Origin: Nakamurella leprariae
Lineage (GTDB): Bacteria; Actinomycetota; Actinomycetes; Mycobacteriales; Nakamurellaceae
DNA length: 64,000 bases
Direction of reading: 5' to 3'
NCBI RefSeq assembly: GCF_016918035.1
Contig: NZ_JAERWK010000008.1
Span: 1 to 64,000, forward strand
In this document: positions 1,531 through 17,253 of the stretch, one piece after another
How the letters are laid out: every line of letters begins with the position of its first letter
Position numbering within the stretch: position 1 is the first letter of the stretch
The notes under the pieces: model-generated
What the model saw: the letters and a program-made list of their open reading frames with translations, nothing else
Told to the model about the DNA's origin: nothing
Database searches by the model: none
Program-made: the position numbers and the translations under genes

Positions 1531-2691
1531 ATGACGCACGGTGAAGCATCCGGATCCTCACTGCGGATCCTGACCGATTCGCAGCGCCTGTTCCCCATCG
1601 GTGGTATCGAGGTCGGTACCCTGCACGACGTGCTCGCCCTGCGGCAGCGCGGCCACGACGTCGCCGTCGCCTACGAGCAGGACGGCGACGATCGTGCCGT
1701 CTACCGCGAGGCGGGGGTGGATCTGCTCGGGCCGTACTCCTTCGCCTTCGAACCGCGGCGGGCGCTGACCGGGGTCGCGTCGTTCCTGCCGGCGGCCCGG
1801 GCCGTGCAGCGGTACCGCCCGGACGTGCTGTGGCTGAACCGCTTCGAGCACATCGTGTGGGCCCAGGCGGTGTCCCGCTGGGCGCGGCTGCGCTCCCGGC
1901 CGATCGTCTGCCACCTCCACCACGTGCCCAACTACGACCGGGTGCGGCTGCTCGGCACGGGCGTCGAGACGTTCGTGGCCGTGTCCGAGCACATGCGCGA
2001 CGTCTGGGTGGACCGCGGACTGCCGTCCGAGAAGGTGGTGGTGGTCCACAACGCCGTGGTCCCGGAGCGGTATCCGATGGGCGGTGACGCCGAACGGACG
2101 GCCGCTCGGGCCGCGCTGGGCCTGCCGCAGGACCGTCCGATCGTGCTGTACTACGGCCTGCTCAGCACCCACAAGGGCGCCGACGTGTTGGCCCGGGCCT
2201 TCCGCCGGTTGCCGCCAGAGGCGCTGCTCGTGATGGTCGGGGCGGACGTCCAGCCGGAGGACACCGGGGTGGTGCGGGCCGCCCTGGCCGAGCTGCCGCC
2301 GGGATCGGTCCGCACGTTCGGCAACCAGCGTGACGTGGTGCCGTTCCTGCACGCCGCCGACGTGGTCGCCTTCCCCACCCAGTTGCCCGAGGCGTTCGGC
2401 CGGGTCGCGGTGGAGGCCATGGCGACCGGCCGACCGGTGGTGGCCTCGCGGATCGGCGCCGTCCCCGAGGTGCTGGGCGCCGAGATGTCCGACCTGTTGG
2501 TCGATGCCGCCGACGAGGCCGCGTGGGCGCAGATCCTGGGTAGCCGATTGCACTGGCGCACCGAGGATCCCGACCTGGGCGCGCGCTGCGCCGCCCTGGT
2601 GGACCGCCGGTTCCGGTTCTCCGGCCACATCGATGCGCTGGAGCGCGTGCTGATCGACGCGGCCCGGTCCCGGCCGCGGGTCGTGGCCTGA
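1531..2691 (+). CDS. Glycosyltransferase family 4
   Basis: Retaining GT-B glycosyltransferase expected to move a sugar from a nucleotide-sugar onto a lipid-linked or polysaccharide acceptor at the cytoplasmic face. The 386-residue product has an N-terminal acceptor domain starting with LRILTDSQRLFPIGGIE and a C-terminal donor domain with the GT4 signature LPEAFGRVAVEAMATGRPVVAS (about residues 285-307) including the E-x7-E type acidic pair. GGAAG sits shortly before ATG 1531. It has its own intergenic region after the mdh terminator and converges on a second glycosyltransferase gene, so it probably belongs to the surface-polysaccharide locus to its right. Sugar donor and acceptor cannot be told from sequence. 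Confidence 0.9.
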   Translation: MTHGEASGSSLRILTDSQRLFPIGGIEVGTLHDVLALRQRGHDVAVAYEQDGDDRAVYREAGVDLLGPYSFAFEPRRALTGVASFLPAARAVQRYRPDVLWLNRFEHIVWAQAVSRWARLRSRPIVCHLHHVPNYDRVRLLGTGVETFVAVSEHMRDVWVDRGLPSEKVVVVHNAVVPERYPMGGDAERTAARAALGLPQDRPIVLYYGLLSTHKGADVLARAFRRLPPEALLVMVGADVQPEDTGVVRAALAELPPGSVRTFGNQRDVVPFLHAADVVAFPTQLPEAFGRVAVEAMATGRPVVASRIGAVPEVLGAEMSDLLVDAADEAAWAQILGSRLHWRTEDPDLGARCAALVDRRFRFSGHIDALERVLIDAARSRPRVVA

Positions 2692-2770: not shown

Positions 2771-3895
2771 TCACGCCGGCGAGCCCGTCGCGGGCACGGC
2801 GGAGCGAGCGACGCCGGCGAGCACGGTGCGGTCGAGCACGTCGAGCAGTTCGGTGTCCTGCTCGCCGAACTTGCGGGCGAACGAAGCACCGGAGTCGAGC
2901 AGGTAGTCCAGGTCCTGGGCGCGCAGCACGTCGGGGCGGCCGGAACTGCGGTCGCTCCACCGGATGGCGTGCAGGGCAGCGTTGTCGACGGTCAGTTCCG
3001 GGTCGTTGACCAGGATGGTCGCGGTCGCCGACTCCAGCGGGATCACCGTGCGCCGGTAGTACTCCACGAAATCAGGTCGTCGGTCGACGAAGTCGACCAC
3101 TCGCCGCAGTGCGGTGCTGGACAACGCGCACCAGCAGTCGTTGTAGACCGGGACCAGACGGGGCCCGAAGGGCGTGCGGCGGGCCCGGACGCCGACCCGG
3201 GTCGGCAGGTTCAGCTCCGGCGGAGTGACATAGAAGCGGACGAACGGCTGCAGCCGTGAGACATGGTGGAAGAACGCGCCTCGCAGCCACCGGGTGAGGC
3301 GCCGCGCCGGGGCCGGCAGTCGTCGCTCGATCCCGGTCGAGGGCAACGAACGGTACTGGTACAGGTAGCGTCTGCGGAACTCCTCGCGCAGATCGGTGTC
3401 CAGTTCGTCGATCCGGTCGACCCGGACCACCGCGTCGGCGTCACTGGCGGCCAGCCGGTCGCGCAGGGCCGAGAGCGGCTCGATCGGGTAGTCCTGCTCG
3501 GACAGCAGCATCACCCAGTCCACGTGGAGGTGCTCGAGCATCCAGCGGAACACCCGCCAGCGCGCGGCCTCCAGCGACAGGTCGCCCCAGACGATGGGCT
3601 CGTCGCTGATCAACACGTGCACGCCGGGCACGTCGTCGAACCGTGGGGTGGCGCCGCGGAACTGGTCGTGGTGCACCACGATCGGCGCGGTCGGGTCGGC
3701 GGTGCGCAGGGTCCGGACCAGCCGCTGCAACTGCGGGCCGGCCAGGTACGAGCTGATGAAGTAGCCGACCCGGACGGCCGCACCGGGCGCGGGCTCGGCA
3801 GCCGCTGCGCCATGGACGGCGCCATGGACGGCGCCCTGGCCGGCGTGCCGGGCCGTGGTGGTGGGCGCGGCGACGGCCCCGGTGACGACGGACAT
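2771..3895 (-). CDS. Core-2/I-branching-type glycosyltransferase (GT14-like)
   Basis: The 374-residue product resembles the Branch family (core-2/I-branching beta-1,6-N-acetylglucosaminyltransferases), which in bacteria occurs in capsule and exopolysaccharide loci. After an Ala-rich leader of about 45 residues come the family features: VRVGYFISSYLAGPQLQRL, the VVHHDQF strand, the DLSLEAARWRVFRWML helix and the VMLLSEQDYPIEPL segment, which matches the usual LSGxDYPL core. The frame stays open far upstream, but the ATG at 3895 follows a GGGAGA ribosome site and upstream residues look non-coding (Arg runs). A homologue with the same domain lies at 7493-8419, on the other side of the synthetase gene. 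Acceptor and product are unknown. Confidence 0.8.
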   Translation of the reverse strand: MSVVTGAVAAPTTTARHAGQGAVHGAVHGAAAAEPAPGAAVRVGYFISSYLAGPQLQRLVRTLRTADPTAPIVVHHDQFRGATPRFDDVPGVHVLISDEPIVWGDLSLEAARWRVFRWMLEHLHVDWVMLLSEQDYPIEPLSALRDRLAASDADAVVRVDRIDELDTDLREEFRRRYLYQYRSLPSTGIERRLPAPARRLTRWLRGAFFHHVSRLQPFVRFYVTPPELNLPTRVGVRARRTPFGPRLVPVYNDCWCALSSTALRRVVDFVDRRPDFVEYYRRTVIPLESATATILVNDPELTVDNAALHAIRWSDRSSGRPDVLRAQDLDYLLDSGASFARKFGEQDTELLDVLDRTVLAGVARSAVPATGSPA

Positions 3896-4803: not shown

Positions 4804-7443
4804 ATGACCACACTCGTGGATGACCGTCCCCTGCTGACTCCGCTCACCGTGCCCGGAGGCGAGCGTTCCGTCGCGCAACGGTGGAAGGCCGTGGTCGCCG
4901 CCGTCCCGGACCGCACCGCCCTGGTCTCCGACGGGGCGCACTACTCGTTCGCCGAGGCCGACCGCCGCTCCGACCGGCTCGCCGCGCTGCTGCTGCCCCG
5001 GCTGCCCGCGGGGAACGACCCGATCGCGCTGGCCATGGGCCACGACGCGGACACCGTCGTGGCCGTGCTCGCGGTGATCAAGACCGGTCGCCCACTGGTC
5101 ATCCTGGACGCGCACATGCCGGCCGAGCGACTGCGGGTCATCGCCGGCCTGGCTCGGGCGACCGCCGTGCTGACCGATCCCGCCCGCGCCGAACTCGCCC
5201 GGTCCCTGGGCGAGCCCGTCGAGCTGGTGGTCGACACCACCGAACTGCTCGCCGCCTCGGGGACCGTCCCGCCGCCACCGCTGCCGGAGCGCGACTACGG
5301 GGACACGGTCGCCATCATCTTCACGTCGGGATCCACCGGCCTGCCCAAGGGTGTGGTGAACACCAACGGCCAGTCGCTCAACGACGGGCTGTTCCTGCGC
5401 GTCGGGCTCGAGCTGACCAGTGACGACCGCATGGCGCTGGTCTTCCCCCTCTCCTTCCTCGCCGGGTACGCCACCGCGATCGGGGCGCTGCTGACGGGCG
5501 CCGCGGTGCACTGCTTCGACCCCCGCGAGGCCGGACTCGGTGGGTTCGCCCGCTGGCTGATCGACGAACGGATCACCGTGCTGTCCTGCACGCCGCACCT
5601 GCTGCGGTCGGCGACCGGTGCGCTCGAGCCGGGTCAGACCCTGGAATCCCTGCGCGTGGTCTGCACCGCCGGTGAGGCGATCCATGGTCGTGACGTGGCG
5701 GCCGTCCGGCCGTTCCTGTCCCCGGACGCCACCTACGTGAACATGACCGGTTCCTCTGAGATCGGGTCGCTCTCGTCCTTCGCCATCCGCCCCGGCGACG
5801 AGATCCCGAACGGATCGGTGCCGGCCGGCATCGCCGCACCCAACAAGCGGTTCCACGTCGTGCTGGACGACGGCACCGTGGCGCCGGACGGCGTCCCTGG
5901 CCACCTGGTCGTCACCTCCGAGTACCTGTCGGCGGGCTACATGACCAGCGCGGAGCTGACTGCCGAGAAGTTCGGCGTGGACTCACACGGCGAGCGCTTC
6001 CACCTGCAGGGCGACCTGGCCCGGATCGACAACGGCATCCTCATGCTGCTCGGCCGGGACGACGCTGCCGTCAAGGTGCGCGGCTACTTCGTGGAGCCGG
6101 CCGAGATCGAGTCGGCCATCCTCGACTCCCCCGCGGTCCGCGAGACGGTGGTGCTGGCCGTCACCGATGACGCGCACCCGACGTACCTGGTCGCCTACGT
6201 GGTGCCCGACCCGCGGGCGGCCACCGAGTCGGTGGCGGCGCTGCGCCGGCGGCTGCGGGAGCGGCTGCCCGAGTTCATGGTCCCGGCAGTGATCGTCCCG
6301 ATGACCGCGCTGCCGCGGAACGAGCGGGGCAAGGTGGAACGCCGCGCGCTGCCCGCCGCGCCGGAACGCGCGATCGGTGCACCGCCGGCCACGCAGTGGG
6401 AGAAGGTGGTCGCCGACCTGTGGGGCGAGGTGCTGGGTCTCGACGAGATCAGCCTGGACGACGACTTCATGGCGCTCGGCGCGGACTCGCTGACCGCCGA
6501 GGAGATGCTGGCCAGGGCCGGTGACCGGTTCTCGGTCTCCCTGGTCACCTCGGACCTGCTGGAGGCGCCGACCCTGCGCGAGTTCAGCCACCGGGTCAGC
6601 CTGGGCTCCGCCTCACTGCCCAGTCACCCGGACGTCGTCTCGCTGGGCGGTCGCGGCACGGCGACCCCGGTGTTCTGCTTCGCCGGCGGCGGCGCCCTGG
6701 CCCTGGGCTTCGCGCCGATCGCCCGGCACTTCGGCGACCGGCCGGTGTACGCGTTCCAGTCCCACGGTCTGGAACGACGGGCCGTGCCGGATCGGACCGT
6801 CGAGGCGGCCGCCGACCGGGCGCTGCAGCTGATGCGGGTGATCCAGCCCGCCGGGCCGTACCTGGTGGTCGGCCACTCGTTCGGCGGGCTGGTCGCGCTC
6901 GAGGTCGCCCGCCGGTTGCGCGACGCCGGTCAGGAGGTCGCCCTGGTCGGCCTGCTGGACACGTTCCTGCTCACCGGCCTGACCGTCCAGGACGCCACCG
7001 AAGCGGCCCAGATCGCCCAGGGCGCCATGGTGCCGCAGCGACTGGACACCCCGCCGGGGCGGTTCGCCGGCGGCTTCCAGGCGCTCGACGGCCTGCTGCG
7101 CCGGGTGCTGCCCGACGGTGTCCCGCACCTGCCGGAGTGGGGTCGGCACGCGCGGGCCAAGGTGGCCGGCGTCATCACCTTCGACGGGCAGCGGCAGTTC
7201 GATGCGCACTTCGACCACACGGTCAAGGTCGCCCGGCGCTATCAGCCCAAGCCGTACGACGGTGCCGCGCTGCTGATCACCGCCGAGAACAACCCGCAGG
7301 GCGCGGCGACCTGGGCCCCGGTGCTCACCGGGAGGCTCGAGGTTCGGGACATGCCCTGTGAGCACAGCTCGATGATCCGGGAGCCGCACGCCGCTCAGGT
7401 GGCCGCGCATCTGGCCGCTGAGATCGACGCGCTCGGACTCTGA
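4804..7443 (+). CDS. Stand-alone adenylation-carrier-thioesterase synthetase (A-T-TE)
   Basis: An 879-residue single-module NRPS-like enzyme without a condensation domain. The adenylation domain (about 20-525) shows IIFTSGSTGLPKG (170-182), GDLARI, VKVRGYFVEPAEIE and the catalytic lysine in NERGKVERR (Lys510). The carrier domain follows (about 535-605) with GADSL, phosphopantetheine serine Ser562. The C-terminal type-I thioesterase (about 620-879) has GHSFGG with nucleophile Ser692 and a late histidine in CEHSSM. In the pocket region the usual FDxS aspartate is missing: the segment reads FPLSFLAGYATAIG (214-227). Known A-T-TE enzymes without that aspartate often activate keto, aryl or hydroxy acids, so an alpha-amino acid substrate is doubtful. 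Its position between two branching glycosyltransferases suggests it supplies an acyl group to a polysaccharide; this is inference. Confidence 0.9.
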   Translation: MTTLVDDRPLLTPLTVPGGERSVAQRWKAVVAAVPDRTALVSDGAHYSFAEADRRSDRLAALLLPRLPAGNDPIALAMGHDADTVVAVLAVIKTGRPLVILDAHMPAERLRVIAGLARATAVLTDPARAELARSLGEPVELVVDTTELLAASGTVPPPPLPERDYGDTVAIIFTSGSTGLPKGVVNTNGQSLNDGLFLRVGLELTSDDRMALVFPLSFLAGYATAIGALLTGAAVHCFDPREAGLGGFARWLIDERITVLSCTPHLLRSATGALEPGQTLESLRVVCTAGEAIHGRDVAAVRPFLSPDATYVNMTGSSEIGSLSSFAIRPGDEIPNGSVPAGIAAPNKRFHVVLDDGTVAPDGVPGHLVVTSEYLSAGYMTSAELTAEKFGVDSHGERFHLQGDLARIDNGILMLLGRDDAAVKVRGYFVEPAEIESAILDSPAVRETVVLAVTDDAHPTYLVAYVVPDPRAATESVAALRRRLRERLPEFMVPAVIVPMTALPRNERGKVERRALPAAPERAIGAPPATQWEKVVADLWGEVLGLDEISLDDDFMALGADSLTAEEMLARAGDRFSVSLVTSDLLEAPTLREFSHRVSLGSASLPSHPDVVSLGGRGTATPVFCFAGGGALALGFAPIARHFGDRPVYAFQSHGLERRAVPDRTVEAAADRALQLMRVIQPAGPYLVVGHSFGGLVALEVARRLRDAGQEVALVGLLDTFLLTGLTVQDATEAAQIAQGAMVPQRLDTPPGRFAGGFQALDGLLRRVLPDGVPHLPEWGRHARAKVAGVITFDGQRQFDAHFDHTVKVARRYQPKPYDGAALLITAENNPQGAATWAPVLTGRLEVRDMPCEHSSMIREPHAAQVAAHLAAEIDALGL

Positions 7444-7492: not shown

Positions 7493-8419
7493 TCAGCGGC
7501 GCAGTTCGGCGTCGACCCGGTCGAGCAGGACGCTGCTCCGCTCGGTGGACACCTTGCGGGCGAACAGCTTCTGCAGCGGGACGTCGGTGCGGTCCTCGTC
7601 GTCGGGGGTGCCTCCGGGCGCACGGGCCGCGTCGGCGACCCGGTCGAAGTCGCCCTCGGTCAGCCAGGCCGGATGGTGGGATCCGCGGGCCGGCCACTTG
7701 ATGAACCACGGATGCCGGTGGCTCACCGGCACCGCCGGCTCCCCGGTCAGCATCGGCGAGCTGAGCACCGACGCCACGACACTCTCCTCCGGCACCAGCG
7801 TCGATCGCCAGAACCTGACCAGGTCGGGACGGGAGTCGACCACCCGGACCACCAACTCCGCGTCGTGCCGGCTGAGGATCTTCCACTGCGACGTGGCCCG
7901 CAGCTCCTGCCCGGCGGGCAGCGGTCGCTGCCAGGTCGTCCGCACCGGGACGCCGCGGACGGTGACCAGGTCGTCCCCGCGGTGCAGGAAGCGGTGCGCC
8001 GTGCGCCACCGGCCGCCGTCGGGGTGCCGGGGCACACTCCACGGCTCGAACGGGATCGGCGCGTTCATCAGGTACGAGCGCCCCGCCCACGGCTTGAGCG
8101 CCTGGATCAACCCGTCGGTGGACAGCAGCGGGTAGTCCGACCCGGAGAGCACCGCGATGTGATCGGCCGACGAGTGCTGCAGGGCCGCCCGGAGCAGGTC
8201 GATCTCCACCCGCACCAGCGACCAGCTGCCCAAGGTGGCCGACGTCCGGGGCACCGCCCGGACCCGGCCGTCCCATCCGGCGATCATGGCCCCGGCCACG
8301 TCGTCGGCGGTCTTGCTGTCGCAGTGCACGACGACCGGGACGTCCTCGAGGGCGCCGATCAACCGGCGCACCTGCGGCGCGTCCCGGTGCGCCATCACCA
8401 CTGCAGCCAACGACGTCAT
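7493..8419 (-). CDS. Core-2/I-branching beta-1,6-N-acetylglucosaminyltransferase family protein
   Basis: The 308-residue product is a clear Branch-family (GT14) member: LAAVVMAHRDAPQVRRLI at the N-terminus, VVVHCDSKT, the GSWSLVRVEIDLLRAAL helix, then HIAVLSGSDYPLL, and later YLMNAPIPFEPW. Family members transfer GlcNAc or xylose onto glycans. The start at ATG 8419 is supported by the family N-terminus, which begins only a few residues before the first strand; the ribosome site is weak. It is a second, shorter member of the family seen at 2771-3895, with which it shares the overall plan but only moderate identity. It converges on the synthetase gene and diverges from the flippase gene. Confidence 0.85.
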   Translation of the reverse strand: MTSLAAVVMAHRDAPQVRRLIGALEDVPVVVHCDSKTADDVAGAMIAGWDGRVRAVPRTSATLGSWSLVRVEIDLLRAALQHSSADHIAVLSGSDYPLLSTDGLIQALKPWAGRSYLMNAPIPFEPWSVPRHPDGGRWRTAHRFLHRGDDLVTVRGVPVRTTWQRPLPAGQELRATSQWKILSRHDAELVVRVVDSRPDLVRFWRSTLVPEESVVASVLSSPMLTGEPAVPVSHRHPWFIKWPARGSHHPAWLTEGDFDRVADAARAPGGTPDDEDRTDVPLQKLFARKVSTERSSVLLDRVDAELRR

Positions 8420-8762: not shown

Positions 8763-10382
8763 GTGACGAGCTCGACGCCGCCGGTGCAGGACCCGGCCGC
8801 CGCACGGCGACCCGGCCCGAAGCACCGCGCTCCCCGGGGGCGGACGCCTGCGCCCGACGCGACCGGGTCACCGGCCGCCAGCGACGCGGCCGCCACGGCG
8901 TCGCTGGCGATCATGGACCCAGCCGGCGGCCCCGCCGCGGGGGAGGCAACCCAGCACCAGGCGCCCCAGAGCGAGGCCACCGACCGTGCCTCGGGCTCGG
9001 CCCTCTTCGGCCGCGGCCTGCTCTACGGCATCGTCACCGCACTGCAGCTGGTCACCAGCGCGCTGGTCTCGCCGATCCTGGCCCACCTGATGGGCGACCC
9101 GGCGGAGTTCGGACGGTTGTCCTCGGCCATCGCCCTGCACCAGATGTTGGTCGTGGTCGGCGTGGTCGGGCTGGACCAAGCGGTGGTGCTGCGCCGCGGC
9201 CAGGACGGGCACGACCGGGACGCACGCTCCCTGGCCAGTGCGGCGATCATGGTGGTCACGGCGGTCACCGGCCTGCTGTTCGTCACCTCACGGTGGTGGG
9301 GCGAGTTCTTCGGCTTCGGCGAGGCCTCCCCGGTCGTCACGGTCACGGTGCTGTGGACCCTGCCGTCCGCCGCGGTGATGATCATGATGGGGCTGTTGCT
9401 GGCCGGCGACCGGCTCGGGCCATACACCGCGGTCGGCATCGCCACCGCCGCCGGCGGCCAGATCGCCGGCATCGTGGTGGTGCTCATCGCCGGCCCCTCG
9501 GCCCAGGACTACCTGCTCGGTCTGGTGGCGGTGGACATCGTCGCCACCGTGGCCGCCGCCCTGCTCACCCGCCCGCAGTGGCGCCGTGCCATGTCCTGGA
9601 AGGTGCTCCGACCGGGCTTGACCCTCGGAGCCCCGTTGATGTTCAGCGCGCTGTCGCTGTTCGTGCTCAACGCGGGCGATCGCATCGTCATCCAACGGCT
9701 GCTCGGGCCGGCCGAGGTGGGCCGGTACCAGATCGCGTACACGGTCGGCTTCGTCGCGGCCCAGTTGATCGGTCTGATCGGCAGTGCCTGGACGCCGCGG
9801 TTCGCCGCCATCAAGGACCTGCCCACCCGCTGGCGGCTGATCGGGCAGTCCCGCGACGCCCTGTACCGGGTGCTGTGCCCGGTCGTCCTGGGTGTGGTCC
9901 TGGCTGCCCCGATGCTGCTGCGGATCGTGGCACCGGAATCCTTCCAGCCGGACTCGCTGCTCATCGTGGTCTTCCTCATCGTCAGCAACGCGTTCCTGAT
10001 CGCCGCGACGGGCGCCACCGGCCGGATGCTCATCACCGAGGGTCGTTCCGTGCCCCTGGCCGTGTGGGCCGGCACCTCCGCCGCGCTGAACGTCGGCCTG
10101 AACCTGCTGCTGGTGCCGATCGCCGGGATCGCGGGGGCGTCCGCCGCCACGGTGATCGCCTACACCGCGCAGAGCTTCGGCCAGCGCTGGTCCGCCGGAC
10201 GGCGTGATCTGTGGCCCCGGACACCACGACGGTTGCTGGTGATGGCCGGCGTGGTGATCGCGGTGGCCGCCGGGACGGTGCTGCTGCCGCAGGATCTGGG
10301 CTGGAACATCGCCCGGGTGGTGCTGGGGCTGGCCTGCCTGCCCTGGTTGTGGGTCGAAGTGCAGCGGGCCCGGAGGAGCTGA
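8763..10382 (+). CDS. Polysaccharide flippase, Wzx/MATE-like
   Basis: Integral membrane protein expected to flip lipid-linked sugar units across the cytoplasmic membrane. From the GTG at 8763 the product is 539 residues. A hydrophilic Ala/Pro/Thr-rich cytoplasmic leader of about 80 residues precedes a membrane domain of 12 or more segments, beginning GLLYGIVTALQLVTSALVS, with the family-typical ALSLFVLNAGDRIVIQRLLGPAEVGRYQIAYTVG region cut here into ALSLFVLNAGDRIVIQ and LGPAEVGRYQIAYT. The frame is open upstream to 8610, but GAGGGG lies 4 bases before GTG 8763 and the upstream translation is low quality. Located within the glycosyltransferase cluster, it is the likely exporter of the repeat unit. 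Confidence 0.88.
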   Translation: MTSSTPPVQDPAAARRPGPKHRAPRGRTPAPDATGSPAASDAAATASLAIMDPAGGPAAGEATQHQAPQSEATDRASGSALFGRGLLYGIVTALQLVTSALVSPILAHLMGDPAEFGRLSSAIALHQMLVVVGVVGLDQAVVLRRGQDGHDRDARSLASAAIMVVTAVTGLLFVTSRWWGEFFGFGEASPVVTVTVLWTLPSAAVMIMMGLLLAGDRLGPYTAVGIATAAGGQIAGIVVVLIAGPSAQDYLLGLVAVDIVATVAAALLTRPQWRRAMSWKVLRPGLTLGAPLMFSALSLFVLNAGDRIVIQRLLGPAEVGRYQIAYTVGFVAAQLIGLIGSAWTPRFAAIKDLPTRWRLIGQSRDALYRVLCPVVLGVVLAAPMLLRIVAPESFQPDSLLIVVFLIVSNAFLIAATGATGRMLITEGRSVPLAVWAGTSAALNVGLNLLLVPIAGIAGASAATVIAYTAQSFGQRWSAGRRDLWPRTPRRLLVMAGVVIAVAAGTVLLPQDLGWNIARVVLGLACLPWLWVEVQRARRS

Positions 10383-10697: not shown

Positions 10698-12950
10698 ATG
10701 GTGACCGACACCCGCACCGGCGCACGCGGCGTGGACCGGACGACCCCGGACGACCGGCCTGAGCCCGGGCCGCTGGGCCCCCGCCGGGAACTCGTCCGGG
10801 CCGCCCTGGTCGGCGCCGCACTGCTGGCCGCCCTGGTGCCCCTGATCGCCTCGGTCGACGTCGCCTTCACCGGACGCGCGGTCCTGGCCACCCTCTTCAT
10901 GATCGGGGTGCCCGGTGTCCCCGTCGCACTGGCGTTCCGGCTGCCGTCGGCGCTGCTGACCACCGCGCTGGCCGTGGCGACCAGCTTCTGCGTCCACATC
11001 GTGATGGCCACCATCGGCATCTACAGCGGCTGGTGGCACCCGGTGGGCGCGGCCTGGATCACCGCGGCGATCGGTCTGGCCGTCACTCCGCTGGCCTGGT
11101 GGCGGCACGCCGCCGGTCGGCGGTGGGCCCGGCCGACCCTGGCGGCCCTGCTGCCGCCGGACCGGCTGGTCGGTCTGGCCGGGCTGGCCGTGGCCGCGGG
11201 CCTGTGGTGGTGGGAGACGCGGCGCATCCCGCTGGACGACAGCGGGGCGCTGGGGCTGCTGCCCGAACTGAGCTGGCGGTACGTGCTGGCGTTGCTGGTG
11301 CTGGCCGCCGTGGTGGCGTTCGCGCTGGTGCGCCGACGGATCGACCACGTCGTGCTGACGGTGGCCGCTGCCCTGCTGGCCCTCATCGCCTTCGCCACCG
11401 TGGCGGTGACCGACGGCAACGGCAGCGTGCCGGTGGGCTGGGTGCACGTCGGCTTCATCCAGTACATCAGCGACAACGGCGACGTCCCGGCCAGCTTCGA
11501 CGCCCGGTTCAGCTGGCCCGGCTTCTTCGCCGCCGCGGCGGAGCTGGTCACCCTGGGCGGCCTGCGGGACGCCAGCGGGCTGCTGGTGCTGGCTTCACCC
11601 GTCTACAACGTGCTGGCCATCCCGGCGCTGCTGGTGATCGGCCGGTTCGTCACCCGGTCCTGGCGCTGGTCGTGGGTCGCGGTGTTCATCTACCTGCTCG
11701 CCAACTGGTACCAGCAGGACTACTTCTCCCCGCAGGCCACCGCGTTGGTGTCCTACCTGGCGGTCATCGCCACCCTGCTCTGGCTGCTGGACGGGGCCGG
11801 GGTCCCCCGGCTGACCGGCGGGTTCGGATCCCGCATCCGGCAGGCGGTCACCCGGCTACCCGGGCTGCCCCCGTGGGTGTCCCCGCGCACCGGCCAGGCC
11901 CTGGGCCTGCTGCTCGCCTTCGTGATCGCCGGCCTCACCGTCGGCCACCAGCTGACCCCGATCAACCTGATCTTCTGCCTGGCCGGCTTCGCCGTCTGCG
12001 GGCTGATCCGGTACCGGATGCTGTGGCTGATCGCCGGCCTCGCCCTGGCGGGTTGGTTCAGCTACGGCGCCACCGACTTCTGGTTCGGCCACCTGCGCGG
12101 CATCGTCAGCGAGGTCGGGGCGGTCGGGAACGCGCTGGACTCCAGCGTGTCCGGGCGGCTCACCGGCAACGCGACGTACCAGCAGGCCCAGTACGTCCGG
12201 ATCGCCTGGTCCGGGTTGCTGTTCCTGGTCGGCGGGGTCGGCGCCTGGCTGTTGCGCCGCCGTCGCGAGGCGCTGCTGCTGGCCGGCCTGGCCTGCGCGC
12301 CGTTCGGGCTGCTGGCCGTGCAGAGCTACGGCGGCGAGGTCATCATCCGCTGCTTCCTGTACGCCACGCCGGTGCTGGCCGCGCTCGCCGCGGTGGCCCT
12401 GCGCGGCGGGGTCCGCGCGCTCGGCCGGGTCGGCGCACGCCGGTCCGCCGGGGGCACGGTGACGCACTCCCCCGCCACCGCCCGTCGGTCCCGGATCGTC
12501 TGGGCCGTCGTCTCGGTGCCGGTGCTGCTGGTCGCGGCGCTGGTGCTCACCTTCACCCGCGGGCTCAACGTCTCGTTCGAGCGGACCCCGCCCGCGCAGG
12601 TCGCCGTCGGGCACGAGCTCTACCAGCGCGCCCAGCCGGGCGACAGCATCGCGCTGGGGTACGGCACCGGACTGAGCCCGTCCCTGGACATCACCGAGAT
12701 CAGGGTGCGCTGGTTCACCCCGCTGCTCTGCGAGGGCGAACCCGCCCTGGCCTGCCTCGGCGACGACCCACCGCGTTTCGTCGTCGTCACCATCACCCAG
12801 CAGCAGTACGCCAACCTCTCGCAGGGCCTGCCCGAGGGCGAGATGTGGCGCTTCGCCGATGAACTGGTGGCCAGCGGCGTGTACCAGAAGGTCATCAGCG
12901 ACGGTGACGCCTGGCTGTTGGAACGACGGACGGAGGTGACGCCGGCATGA
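10698..12950 (+). CDS. Large polytopic membrane protein of the polysaccharide locus
   Basis: A 750-residue membrane protein from ATG 10698 (GAGG at 10687-10690 upstream). After a 30-residue hydrophilic leader it has many hydrophobic segments (at least 12), for example LVGAALLAALVPLIASVDV and ALLVLAAVVAFALV, a soluble-looking loop with WVHVGFIQYISDNGDVPAS and FDARFSWPGFFAA, then further membrane segments and an extracytoplasmic C-terminal domain of about 150 residues that contains GDSIALGYGTG and a CEGEPALACLGDDP cysteine pair. The layout resembles GT-C glycosyltransferases or polymerases of actinobacterial surface-polysaccharide loci, but I do not recognise the family. It overlaps the next gene by ATGA, so the two are translationally coupled. 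Confidence 0.8.
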   Translation: MVTDTRTGARGVDRTTPDDRPEPGPLGPRRELVRAALVGAALLAALVPLIASVDVAFTGRAVLATLFMIGVPGVPVALAFRLPSALLTTALAVATSFCVHIVMATIGIYSGWWHPVGAAWITAAIGLAVTPLAWWRHAAGRRWARPTLAALLPPDRLVGLAGLAVAAGLWWWETRRIPLDDSGALGLLPELSWRYVLALLVLAAVVAFALVRRRIDHVVLTVAAALLALIAFATVAVTDGNGSVPVGWVHVGFIQYISDNGDVPASFDARFSWPGFFAAAAELVTLGGLRDASGLLVLASPVYNVLAIPALLVIGRFVTRSWRWSWVAVFIYLLANWYQQDYFSPQATALVSYLAVIATLLWLLDGAGVPRLTGGFGSRIRQAVTRLPGLPPWVSPRTGQALGLLLAFVIAGLTVGHQLTPINLIFCLAGFAVCGLIRYRMLWLIAGLALAGWFSYGATDFWFGHLRGIVSEVGAVGNALDSSVSGRLTGNATYQQAQYVRIAWSGLLFLVGGVGAWLLRRRREALLLAGLACAPFGLLAVQSYGGEVIIRCFLYATPVLAALAAVALRGGVRALGRVGARRSAGGTVTHSPATARRSRIVWAVVSVPVLLVAALVLTFTRGLNVSFERTPPAQVAVGHELYQRAQPGDSIALGYGTGLSPSLDITEIRVRWFTPLLCEGEPALACLGDDPPRFVVVTITQQQYANLSQGLPEGEMWRFADELVASGVYQKVISDGDAWLLERRTEVTPA

Positions 12951-13474
12951 TCCACGCGATCACCACCTGGCTCGGCCTGGTGCTGTTCCTGGCCGCCGCG
13001 GTGTGCGCGCTGGCCGCCGACTTCCTGCGGCAGCCACTGAGCCCGGCGACCGGGTGGAAAACGACCACGGCGCGGCTCACGCGGGCTCGTCCGGTGCCCG
13101 TCGGCGGCCGTGGGTCCAGCACGTCGCTGACCGACGAGCTGCTGGCCGGACCGGAGTCCAACGGCCCGCCGATCCGGGCGGCCGACGACGAGACGCTGGG
13201 CGCCGTGGTCGGCCGGGCCGGTGGCGGCGACGAGCCGATCGATCGGGTGACCCATGATCCGACCCACGATCCGACCCACGATCGGACCCACGAGGCGACC
13301 GACGGTGCCGCCGGCCAGGGTGCGCCGACGGAAGACACCGGGGTCGCCGAGGACGGTCGCCGGGGCCGGCAGTCCCGGGCCGCCTGGGTGACCCGGCTCG
13401 GCCTGCTCGCCGTGGTGCTGGCCGTGCTGGCCGCGCTGGCCACGATCATCCGGTTCGTCGAGTTCACCTCCTGA
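12947..13474 (+). CDS. Small two-segment membrane protein coupled to the preceding gene
   Basis: 175 residues starting in an ATGA overlap with the stop of the large membrane protein, which fixes the start. An N-terminal hydrophobic segment (TTWLGLVLFLAAAVCALAA, about 6-24) and a C-terminal one (LGLLAVVLAVLAALATIIRF, about 150-169) enclose a hydrophilic middle with a tandem THDP motif (about residues 101-112). The middle is probably cytoplasmic or periplasmic linker. No family recognised; the tight coupling suggests an accessory subunit of the upstream membrane protein. Confidence 0.72.
   Translation: MIHAITTWLGLVLFLAAAVCALAADFLRQPLSPATGWKTTTARLTRARPVPVGGRGSSTSLTDELLAGPESNGPPIRAADDETLGAVVGRAGGGDEPIDRVTHDPTHDPTHDRTHEATDGAAGQGAPTEDTGVAEDGRRGRQSRAAWVTRLGLLAVVLAVLAALATIIRFVEFTS
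13247..13294 (+). repeat. 12-bp tandem repeat inside the small membrane protein gene
   Basis: About four imperfect copies of a GACCCACGATCC-like unit encode the residues THDPTHDPTHDRTHE. In-frame coding repeat; copy number may vary between strains. Confidence 0.7.
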
Positions 13475-14697: not shown

Positions 14698-17253
14698 TCA
14701 GGCGGTGCGGAAGACCTCGATCTCGGCCAGCCCGACGTTCTTGGTCGTGCTGGCCACCTGGGTCACGGTGAACCGGATGGACGTCGTCGACTTCGCCGGG
14801 AACGAGACCGTCAGCGCCGAACCGTCGTTCGGCAGCTGTCCGACCGCGACGGTGGATCCGTCCGAGAAGCGCAGCGTGCCGGCCAAGATCCGATCGTCGG
14901 CGTTCGGCCGGTCGTACAGCACGACCCGGTCGACCCGGACCGCGGAGGCCCACGCCAAGTTGAACCAGGAGTTGGCCCGGCCACCGGTGGTGACCCACTC
15001 CCGGCTGGCGTCACCCGGGTACCCGTCCTTGACACCGTCGACCGCCTTGGCGGCCGTCTGCCCGTCCGCGGTGTTCTGCGACGACGCGGTCACCGTGGCC
15101 TGCCCGGCCACGTTCACGGCGTCCGACGCCGGCGGCGTGGTGGTCGTGGGGGTGGTCGGCGTGGTCGTGGTCGGCGGGTTGGTGGTGGGCGTCGTGGTCG
15201 GCGGGTTGGTGGTGGTCGGCGGCGGAGTGCTGGTGCCGGCGGTCAGCACCTGCATCTCGGCCAGGCCGACGTTCCGGGTGGTTCCGGACACCTGGGTGAT
15301 GGTGAACCGGATCGACGTCGTCGACTCGGCCGGGAAGGAGACCGTCAGCGGGGATCCGTCGTTGGGCAACTGCCCGACCGCGACGGTGGACCCGTCGGAG
15401 AAGCGCAGCGTCCCGGCGAGGATCTGGTCGTCGGCGTTGGGGCGGTCGTGCAGCACCACCCGGTCCACCTGCACCGCGGACGGCCAGGCCAGGTTCAGCC
15501 ACGAGTTGGCCCGGCCACCGGTGGTGGCCCACTCCCGGGCGAAGTCACCCGGGTACCCGTCGGCCACGCCGTCGACCGCCTTGGGTGCGGTCTGCCCGTC
15601 GGCCGTGTTCTGTGACGACGCGGTCGCCGTCGACTGCGGGGCGACGTTCAGTCCTCCGGAGCCGGGCGGCGGTGTGGTGGGTGGCGTCGTGGTGGGCGGG
15701 GTCGTCGTGGGCGGAGTCGTCGGCGGCGTGGTGGTGGGCGGAGTCGTCGGCGGCGTGGTGGTGGGCGGAGTCGTCGGCGGCGTGGTGGTGGGCGGAGTCG
15801 TCGGCGGCGTGGTGGTGGGCGGGGTCGTCCCGGTGGCCAGCACCTGGAACTCGGCCAGCCCGATGTTCAGCGTGGTGCTGGACACCTGGGTCACGGTGAA
15901 CCGGATGGACGTCGTCGACTTCGCGGGGAACGAGACCGTCAGCGCCGAACCGTCGTTCGGCAGCTGTCCGACCGCGACGGTGGATCCGTCCGAGAAGCGC
16001 AGCGTGCCGGCCAGGATCCGATCGTCGGCGTTGGGTCGGTCGTGCAGCACCACCCGGTCCACGCGCACCGCCGGGTTCCACGCCAGGTTGAGCCAGGAGT
16101 TGGCCCGGCCACCCGCCGTGGCCCACTCCCGGGACACGTCGCCCGGATAGCCGTCGGCGACGCCGTCGACCGCCTTGGCGGCGGTCTGCCCGTCCGCGGT
16201 GTTCTGCGAGGACGCGGTCACCGTGGCCTGACCGGCCACGTTGGTGCCACCGGACGTGGGCGGGGTCGTCGTCGGCGGGGTGGTCGTCGGCGGGGTCGTG
16301 GGAGGTGTCGTGGTGGGCGGGACCTGTCCCGGTTCCTGATCACTGCCGGGCACCGTGTGGCTGCGGGTCAGCCACTGGGCCTCCGGCTTGCCGGCGCAGG
16401 CGGCCACCGTCTGGCATTCCCGCCAGTCGAAGGGGGCGTAGGTGTAGTAGGCGCTGGACTTGGCCTGCGCGTCGGCGGCGGACAGGTTGGCCGACTCGTA
16501 CACCGTCGGGTAGCCGCGGTAGCCCAGCAACGCGGCCGACGGGGCGTACTGCTGGCGGATCTGCTCGGCCAGGTAGGCCACCGTGTAGTGGTCGCTGTGG
16601 TCGCCGTCGCCGTAGTGCCCGTCGAAGTCCAGGGTTCGGATCACGGTGGGCGTCGACGCGGTGACGATCGCGCCGACCGCGGTCCGCAGCTGTGCCAGCG
16701 TGTAGGTGGCGGTCCGGTCGACGGCGCGGATGCTGGTGATCGCACCGGACCACAGCTTCTGCAGGCTGGCGTACTGGCTGCGGCTCCCGCCGCTGCCATC
16801 CATCATCCCGTCGGGTAGACGCATCCAGACGGTGGAGACCTTCGGGTTGGCCGACAGGGTGTTCATCACCACGGGGCGCCCACCGGCCGGCGCGGTACCG
16901 CTGGTCCACTGGTTGGCGACCCCGGCCATCTGCGCGTACGCGGCGAGCACGCCGGCCTCGCGCGACATCCAGTAGTAGGAGTCGTCGTTCGCGTCACCGG
17001 AGGTGAGGAACACCGTGCGGACGCACTTCCCGGCCTTGATGTCCTTGATGATGGCCGGGTTGACGAAGAACAGGTCATCGTCCGGGTGGGCGACGATGCT
17101 GACCGTCGACCCGGCCGGGCACGCCGCCGGCGCGGCGGCAGCCTCGGCGTCGGGGTTCTGGATCCGGATCAGGACGACCGCCACGAGGGCAAGCACCACC
17201 CCGATCGAGAGCAGCTGCGGGCGGCGTCGTCGAGGCGTCGCGGCGGTGTTCAT
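14698..17253 (-). CDS. Secreted PIG-L-type deacetylase with three C-terminal F5/8C-like modules
   Basis: An 851-residue exported protein. An Arg-rich start and a hydrophobic segment (LLSIGVVLALVAVVLI) form a signal peptide or anchor. The catalytic PIG-L/LmbE domain (about 45-310) has the zinc motif AHPDDD (55-60; the usual last residue is Glu) and a later DHSDHYT histidine pair. Family enzymes remove N-acetyl groups from sugars such as GlcNAc. Three near-identical discoidin-like modules of about 138 residues (about 337-472, 534-672 and 712-851) are joined by Thr/Pro linkers and each contains TASSQNTADGQTA and NADDRILAGTLRFSDGST-like segments. They probably bind glycans. ATG 17253 follows AAGAAGAG; an ATG at 17286 with GGGGGAGG only 3 bases away is an alternative. 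A likely role is trimming or de-N-acetylating the locus polysaccharide. Confidence 0.88.
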   Translation of the reverse strand: MNTAATPRRRRPQLLSIGVVLALVAVVLIRIQNPDAEAAAAPAACPAGSTVSIVAHPDDDLFFVNPAIIKDIKAGKCVRTVFLTSGDANDDSYYWMSREAGVLAAYAQMAGVANQWTSGTAPAGGRPVVMNTLSANPKVSTVWMRLPDGMMDGSGGSRSQYASLQKLWSGAITSIRAVDRTATYTLAQLRTAVGAIVTASTPTVIRTLDFDGHYGDGDHSDHYTVAYLAEQIRQQYAPSAALLGYRGYPTVYESANLSAADAQAKSSAYYTYAPFDWRECQTVAACAGKPEAQWLTRSHTVPGSDQEPGQVPPTTTPPTTPPTTTPPTTTPPTSGGTNVAGQATVTASSQNTADGQTAAKAVDGVADGYPGDVSREWATAGGRANSWLNLAWNPAVRVDRVVLHDRPNADDRILAGTLRFSDGSTVAVGQLPNDGSALTVSFPAKSTTSIRFTVTQVSSTTLNIGLAEFQVLATGTTPPTTTPPTTPPTTTPPTTPPTTTPPTTPPTTTPPTTPPTTTPPTTTPPTTPPPGSGGLNVAPQSTATASSQNTADGQTAPKAVDGVADGYPGDFAREWATTGGRANSWLNLAWPSAVQVDRVVLHDRPNADDQILAGTLRFSDGSTVAVGQLPNDGSPLTVSFPAESTTSIRFTITQVSGTTRNVGLAEMQVLTAGTSTPPPTTTNPPTTTPTTNPPTTTTPTTPTTTTPPASDAVNVAGQATVTASSQNTADGQTAAKAVDGVKDGYPGDASREWVTTGGRANSWFNLAWASAVRVDRVVLYDRPNADDRILAGTLRFSDGSTVAVGQLPNDGSALTVSFPAKSTTSIRFTVTQVASTTKNVGLAEIEVFRTA
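15721..15828 (-). repeat. Four 27-bp tandem repeats coding a Thr/Pro linker
   Basis: Units at 15721-15747, 15748-15774 and 15775-15801 are identical and 15802-15828 differs by one base. Each encodes nine residues of the T/P linker between the first and second C-terminal modules of the deacetylase. The neighbouring linkers (about 15130-15230 and 16250-16320) carry looser versions. Confidence 0.9.

Follow-up and report, generated by a model that had tools for sequence, protein, structure and literature searches.

Introduction

Terminal modules of nonribosomal peptide synthetases (NRPSs) in which condensation, adenylation (A), thiolation (T) and thioesterase (TE) domains follow one another (C-A-T-TE modules; EntF, SrfA-C, AB3403 and ObiF1) share the fold and order of their A, T and TE domains with an enzyme of Nakamurella leprariae that is the subject of this study. 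The enzyme is encoded in a stretch of 64,000 nucleotides, analysed as a whole and hereafter called the window, whose first base is also that of contig C27 (NZ_JAERWK010000008.1, assembly GCF_016918035.1); the view of upstream genes therefore ends there. C-A-T-TE modules rank first among structural matches of the whole enzyme model and occur among its sequence matches as well. Unlike these modules, the window enzyme has no condensation domain, lacks both the aspartate at position 235 (PheA numbering) and the proline of the GPTE motif, and lies in a glycan context.

The domain order A-T-TE is that of the fungal quinone and furanone synthetases, which also resemble the window enzyme in their use of a substrate other than an amino acid. 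One of them, AlfA, is reported to convert phenylpyruvate to polyporic acid (PMC12105029). Unlike AlfA, the window enzyme belongs to a family tied to glycan genes and, at 6 of the 57 loci compared, to benzoic-acid genes. Stand-alone aryl-acid A domains (DhbE, EntE, CahJ and NpsA) likewise need no aspartate for an α-amine, and part of the window family shares their linkage to aryl-acid genes; however, the window enzyme carries fused T and TE domains, has leucine at position 235 where asparagine is reported for DhbE, and finds its top sequence and structure matches among amino-acid A domains.

The DltA-DltC and AlmE systems are made of separate proteins. Their A domains serve an envelope glycan or lipid, as described in PMC11253843, and retain the amine-binding aspartate, whereas the window enzyme does not. 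Precursor genes similar to those of the 3-amino-4-hydroxybenzoate (3,4-AHBA) pathways (GriI/GriH, BagB/BagC and FevI/FevH) and of the rifamycin-type amino-hydroxybenzoate (AHBA) pathway are found beside some family members. In those pathways the acid ends up in pigments, in other small molecules or in polyketides; in the window family, in contrast, the precursor genes stand beside an A-T-TE gene and, in the 3,4-AHBA-type loci, beside a flippase. Here, we tentatively propose that the window enzyme activates a carboxylic acid free of an α-amine, with a hydroxy- or an aminobenzoic acid as the likeliest candidate, and that its TE domain acylates a glycan, or a precursor of one, before the flippase exports it.

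The window enzyme is a free-standing A-T-TE protein

All Pfam domains of the 879-residue protein exceed their gathering scores, and no condensation domain was found among them; the only condensation domain that a search of the genome found (E ≤ 0.001) sits on another contig, C25. The open frame and the Pfam domains thus bear out an earlier note on this DNA, which had described a free-standing A-T-TE enzyme, and the carrier serine S562, the motif GHSFGG from residue 690 and the motif FPLSFLAG from residue 214 were all recovered where that note had placed them. The catalytic residues K510, S562 and S692-D719-H854 are all present, the last three of which we take from their motifs to be the thioesterase triad. 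Across a set of 60 family members, 45 from the same genome and order and 15 from the class, S562 is conserved throughout, and the triad positions S692, D719 and H854 are kept in 52, 52 and 51, respectively.

The AlphaFold2 model has a mean predicted local distance difference test (pLDDT) score of 87.4, and its adenylation part matches NRPS A domains with Z scores of up to 49.4. We discarded the structural ranking as a means of separating aryl-acid from amino-acid enzymes: amino-acid A domains come first, with NpsA and feruloyl-CoA synthetase about 3 Z units lower.

The substrate pocket lacks the α-amine aspartate and the GPTE proline

In an alignment with LgrA, F218-L219 of the pocket segment FPLSFLAGYATAIG stand opposite the FD of FDxS, so that the FDxS aspartate is replaced by L219, as had been claimed earlier. 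The residues at PheA positions 235, 236, 239, 278, 299, 301, 322, 330, 331 and 517 read L-A-A-S-C-A-M-S-L-K; none of the ten is acidic, and the code therefore holds no substitute for the lost aspartate. These positions come from sequence alignment rather than from model coordinates, and those beyond 239 are where we presume them to lie from PheA motifs and the LgrA alignment. Position 235 is occupied in the 60 family members by A (29), G (13), S (7), D (4), I (3), L (2) and H (2), compared with D in all nine NRPS A domains taken from related genomes. The GPTE proline is replaced in every family member (S in 43, A in 11, T in 3, V in 2 and C in 1) and retained in eight of the nine NRPS domains; this second change is absent from the earlier note. 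At position 322, the window enzyme has M, as against W in 32 of the 60. The only members that keep D235 come from L076 (two genes), L080 and L099, and the 20-kb loci around them contain none of the glycan or aromatic-acid genes that were sought. The invariant P215 was considered as a marker of acyl- or aryl-ligases and dropped, as four of the nine NRPS rows share it.

PMC11253843 reports a polar residue at position 235 that contacts the 2-hydroxyl (N in DhbE, D in EntE), Ala or Gly in hydroxy-acid A domains and Ile in keto-acid A domains, and, in the keto-acid A domain StsA, M415 in place of a conserved proline, which by our own reading is the GPTE proline. L219 is accordingly neither the aspartate of α-amino-acid A domains nor the polar residue of the DhbE/EntE type. 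Taken together, L219, the absence of acidic code residues, the loss of the GPTE proline and the aromatic-acid genes beside a paralogue and some distant relatives give good support to the earlier suggestion that the substrate is probably not an ordinary α-amino acid. An exception to the aspartate rule is known, however: McyG, with Val at 235, lacks the aspartate and still takes Phe (PMC11253843).

A distinct actinobacterial A-T-TE family

The window enzyme is no orphan: four more members are encoded in the same genome, at C6:74479 (61% identity), C1:202602 (44%), C6:24776 (43%) and C29:94682 (42%). The best matches elsewhere, one member each, are in G011 (51%), G013 (47%) and G045 (39%), of which the first two are congeneric genomes; together with the 61% paralogue, the matches in these two place the A-T-TE observation beyond chance. 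A scan of the genome-contig collection with the protein returned no relative. In a search of 397 genomes of the order, which scores two candidates per genome and hence undercounts paralogues, family members score at least 573 bits, the next matches score at most 498 bits and are mostly much longer frames, and 33 genomes hold members by the search list. A search of 335 class-level genomes added many further members, most of them of family code f32; here the gap is harder to see, as matches continue downward from 591 bits.

In a tree of the 60 members and nine NRPS A domains, a small outgroup with no DhbE-type enzyme, a single branch separates all 60 from the NRPS domains, and its Shimodaira–Hasegawa-like approximate likelihood ratio test (SH-aLRT) support is 99. 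The window enzyme forms its own branch with those of L029 and L033 (SH-aLRT 99). As judged from its sequence, it appears to belong to a distinct actinobacterial A-T-TE family, apart from these nine NRPS A domains.

Some family members lie among glycan genes, and four are fused to a flippase-like part

We compared 57 loci of 20 kb, 42 from the same genome and the order and 15 from the class, with 40 control windows, which were placed by hand, not at random, on contigs of the same genome and the order; none came from class-level genomes. Gene starts outside the window are those of a simple gene caller. A flippase, a GT-C-like protein, a GH16 and a GT2 are encoded in 17, 17, 10 and 18 of the 42 loci, against 0, 1, 0 and 2 of the controls. 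Since the neighbourhood reference sequences stem partly from counted loci, we repeated the count without the seven reference loci, and found 12, 12, 7 and 14 of 35.

In four loci (L085, L100, L101 and L102), a flippase-like part and the A-T-TE enzyme form one frame of about 1260–1300 residues. The flippase-like part has 10 or 11 hydrophobic segments. Pfam finds A, T and TE in both fusions scanned (L100 and L101) and the flippase only below threshold, in L101; the part is therefore named by BLAST, with 233–254 bits to reference flippases. Within 20 kb of the fusions of L101 and L102, no GriH match was detected.

No TE domain is seen in eight of the 60 members, including L032, which is cut by a contig end; about 2 kb upstream of it, L032 encodes a TE in a gene of its own; in L094, an Acyl_transf_3 gene adjoins the A-T gene. 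In L074, L075, L077 and L081, a second, distant protein of about 985–990 residues is encoded near the A-T-TE gene; that of L075 (11591-15249) combines AMP-binding, carrier and TE domains, also matches ACAS_N and is preceded by the gene of a phosphopantetheinyl transferase. In L087 and L090, the A-T-TE gene stands beside a long gene that is polyketide-synthase-like, as named from its first residues only.

Aromatic-acid genes adjoin a paralogue and some distant relatives

Aromatic-acid genes occur near the A-T(-TE) gene in L030, L085, L086, L100, L176 and L183, against none of the 40 controls, and these six loci spread over four separate branches of the tree; L096, with a lone weak HAD match of 69 bits, was left out of the count. 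In L030, which belongs to the genome of the window, an Rv2949c-like chorismate lyase (PF01947, 28.0 bits, cut-off 22) adjoins the gene of an A-T paralogue, and the two frames touch. Within 8 kb lie a 4-hydroxybenzoate 3-monooxygenase-like gene (505.6 bits against a subfamily cut-off of 351; 455.5 bits, below the equivalog cut-off of 538.7), a BD-FAE-type esterase and a WxL/lactonase-propeller protein. Rv2949c-like genes were found in eight of the 397 genomes, two of which also hold the family; that of G182 adjoins an A domain and a long gene with a polyketide-synthase-like start, on a different contig from the family member.

A set of GT2, hydroxybenzoate-hydroxylase-like, ADH-synthase-like and 3-dehydroquinate-synthase-II-like genes adjoins the A-T-TE gene in L100 (G094), L145/L085 (G229) and L086 (G391). 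Specifically, the 3-dehydroquinate-synthase-II/BagC-FevH-like gene is present in L085, L086 and L100, and the ADH-synthase-like gene in L086, L100 and L145, which overlaps L085; these are the GriI/GriH-like genes of the family. The two L100 proteins score 249.9 bits (ADH-synthase-like, subfamily cut-off 241) and 476.2 bits (3-dehydroquinate-synthase-II-like, cut-off 375), and both also match the bagremycin/ferroverdin models, under the strict cut-offs of those models. The scanned proteins of L086, L145 and L146 agree with the L100 assignments; L146 is the set of G328, which lies on a different contig from both A-T-TE genes of that genome. The set spans 7120-18863 of L145 and 8337-13815 of L146, and G229 carries two 3-dehydroquinate-synthase-II-like copies. 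PF01959 stands beside a family member in three of the four order-level genomes that hold both.

The A-T-TE genes of L176 and L183 are surrounded by AroB-, AroE-, AroQ-, DegT-, ROK-, GFO- and HAD-like genes, which we take to be a 3-amino-5-hydroxybenzoate pathway; in support, the HAD protein of L183 matches the AHBA_synth_RP model at 325.2 bits (cut-off 246.65). TIGR01454 is found in 20 of the 335 class-level genomes and within 6 kb of an A-T-TE match in four (G449, G464, G528 and G654), which count as one event because all bear one genus code. The codes of the aromatic-linked enzymes are AATHTCWHLK (L030), AATHTSWSLK (L176 and L183), GANVITWSIK (L100), GANVVTWSIK (L085) and GGDHTCLNLK (L086).

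The neighbourhood in the window resembles a glycan assembly and export cluster

The A-T-TE gene is a single plus-strand gene flanked on either side by one on the minus strand; its neighbours are genes of glycan assembly and export (Table 1). The model of the GT-C-fold membrane protein has a mean pLDDT of 73.3 and matches the yeast oligosaccharyltransferase (Z 23.0, root-mean-square deviation 5.3, 429 residues aligned), followed by PglB (Z 17.1), AftA (Z 16.9) and ArnT (Z 15.6). A small frame occupies the place equivalent to that after the GT-C gene in L033, with weak similarity (E 3e-7), and in L030 and L034, with no match to the window's. Because glycosyltransferases, a flippase and a GT-C-fold protein adjoin one another, the neighbourhood looks like a cluster for lipid-linked glycan assembly and export. 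Further downstream, positions 14698-17253 encode one protein with a PIG-L-type deacetylase domain and three DUF7402/F5-F8-type domains. An Rfam scan of the window gave no match at the gathering score.

Table 1. Coordinates of the A-T-TE enzyme, its neighbours in the window and the flippase fusions of other loci
Feature	Position	Strand	Basis
GT4-type glycosyltransferase	1531..2691	+	PF00534, PF13439
Core-2/I-branching-type glycosyltransferase	2771..3895	-	PF02485, 32.2 bits (cut-off 23.4)
A-T-TE enzyme	4804..7443	+	one open frame, 879 aa
Adenylation domain, aa 30-510	4891..6333	+	PF00501 AMP-binding 30-379, PF13193 AMP-binding_C 434-510
A4 pocket segment FPLSFLAGYATAIG, aa 214-227, L219 at PheA D235 position	5443..5484	+	alignment
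A5 segment MTGSSE, aa 314-319, S317 at GPTE proline position	5743..5760	+	alignment
Carrier (thiolation) domain, aa 535-597, S562	6406..6594	+	PF00550 PP-binding
Type I thioesterase domain, aa 622-871, presumed triad S692/D719/H854	6667..7416	+	PF00975
Second Core-2/I-branching-type glycosyltransferase	7493..8419	-	PF02485, 48.5 bits
Polysaccharide flippase, 12 hydrophobic segments (simple hydropathy scan)	8763..10382	+	PF13440, PF01943
GT-C-fold membrane protein, oligosaccharyl/arabinosyltransferase-like, 750 residues	10698..12950	+	structure model; no Pfam family
Small protein, frame overlapping the end of the GT-C gene	12947..13474	+	open frame
Flippase-A-T-TE fusions, family code f7	L085 7350-11243, L100 8655-12536, L101 8689-12561, L102 8648-12436		

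Discussion

We infer the acid, the acceptor and the role of the TE domain as a transferase rather than a hydrolase as follows. The acid would react with ATP to form an acyl-adenylate, and the acyl group would then pass to the phosphopantetheine on the enzyme's own carrier serine, S562. S692 of the TE domain would take over the acyl group and pass it, in the cytoplasm, onto a hydroxyl group carried by a nucleotide sugar or a lipid-linked glycan, and the flippase and the GT-C protein would complete export and assembly. The flippase fusions and the esterase gene of L030 suggest that the TE domain transfers the acyl group rather than hydrolysing it. The acid of the window enzyme itself may also be another benzoate, a cinnamate, a keto acid or a hydroxy acid. 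We put the probability of aryl transfer to a glycan at slightly below one half (about 0.48), because the pocket is distinct and no aromatic-acid genes were found in the window or in L029 and L033.

Several observations weigh against this proposal. The aromatic-acid genes that were sought occur neither beside the gene itself nor anywhere else in the 64-kb window, nor in the 20-kb stretches that hold L029 and L033, its nearest relatives, and 51 of the 57 loci have no aromatic-acid cluster. The window pocket is unlike the aromatic-linked pockets, and L170 and L179 carry AATHTCWSLK with no aromatic-acid genes nearby; being near-identical to the code of L030, they show that the code on its own does not settle the context. 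Moreover, at least one code position is acidic in 16 of the 60 members, four of which keep D235 itself. PF01959 and the family co-occur in four of the 397 genomes with 2.6 expected (31 and 33 carriers), which is close to independence, so that a genome-level enrichment was rejected and only the adjacency is striking. Regarding the glycan side, no flippase was matched in 25 of the 42 loci from the same genome and the order, and the 15 class-level loci have no polysaccharide-reference match above 50 bits and no flippase (0 of 15); one of the latter, L171, encodes a bacterial sugar transferase. Finally, seven members end at a stop codon without a TE domain, and another acyltransferase must therefore serve there.

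The main rival explanation is an A-T-TE enzyme for an α-keto or α-hydroxy acid, for example an arylpyruvate, whose TE domain would dimerise the substrate to a quinone or furanone, with the glycan genes as chance neighbours or as part of pigment export. Besides the shared domain order, it draws on the pocket: L219 agrees with the small or aliphatic residues described at position 235 for such A domains, and S317 with the loss of the proline in StsA, again by our own reading (PMC11253843). We nevertheless regard it as unlikely, given that some relatives stand beside benzoic-acid genes, that four are fused to a flippase-like part and that the window gene has glycan genes, among them one for a GT-C protein, around it. 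The earlier note had drawn a likeness to quinone synthetases: its expectation of a non-amino-acid substrate is supported and the pocket residues also fit a keto- or hydroxy-acid enzyme, though they do not decide the matter by themselves, but the likeness itself agrees less well than glycan acylation does with the glycan-assembly context and the aromatic supply in relatives.

If the enzyme instead loads an aryl or other acid that the TE domain releases as a small product free to diffuse, whether an ester, an amide or the free acid, the flippase relative would be the exporter of this product and the glycan link incidental. The loci with no flippase match in the order and the class are in line with such a product, as are an ABC exporter adjoining the AHBA-type genes of L176 and the polyketide-synthase-like genes, named from their first residues only, beside the A-T-TE genes of L087 and L090. 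The absence of aromatic-acid genes from the window and the loose tracking of context by the codes weigh towards this product and away from aryl transfer; the enrichment of flippase, GT-C-like and GH16 genes over the controls and the flippase fusions speak against it, and we consider its probability low. Aminoacylation of a glycan or lipid by a one-protein counterpart of DltA/DltC or AlmE/AlmF, with an amino acid activated despite the lost aspartate, would fit the glycan context, the presence of DltA among the structural matches and the precedent of McyG (PMC11253843). DltA and AlmE, however, keep the aspartate (D197 and D247, respectively, in the same source), whereas the window enzyme has L219 and no acidic code residue and has lost the GPTE proline, which makes aminoacylation quite improbable.

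Beyond the window, the proposed aryl transfer could be part of a widespread, undescribed glycan aroylation in actinobacteria, an idea that we hold as doubtful though possible. A single A-T-TE protein, sometimes fused to a flippase, would acylate a lipid-linked glycan before export with 4-hydroxybenzoate or protocatechuate, 3-amino-4-hydroxybenzoate, 3-amino-5-hydroxybenzoate or another acid, giving redox-active or metal-binding phenolic polysaccharides, and the window enzyme would represent a branch with a new acid. In the titles and abstract openings of the best-matching literature, which included few subscription papers, we found no paper on A-T-TE enzymes that acylate polysaccharide, and this is weak evidence of novelty. 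If true, aryl transfer would join NRPS-type acid activation with polysaccharide export, two fields that are usually kept apart, and would account for some of the genes annotated as NRPS-like with unknown substrate. It predicts 4-hydroxybenzoyl, protocatechuoyl and aminohydroxybenzoyl esters on actinobacterial glycans, and the flippase-A-T-TE fusions would gain a clear role, namely to acylate the glycan and then flip it.

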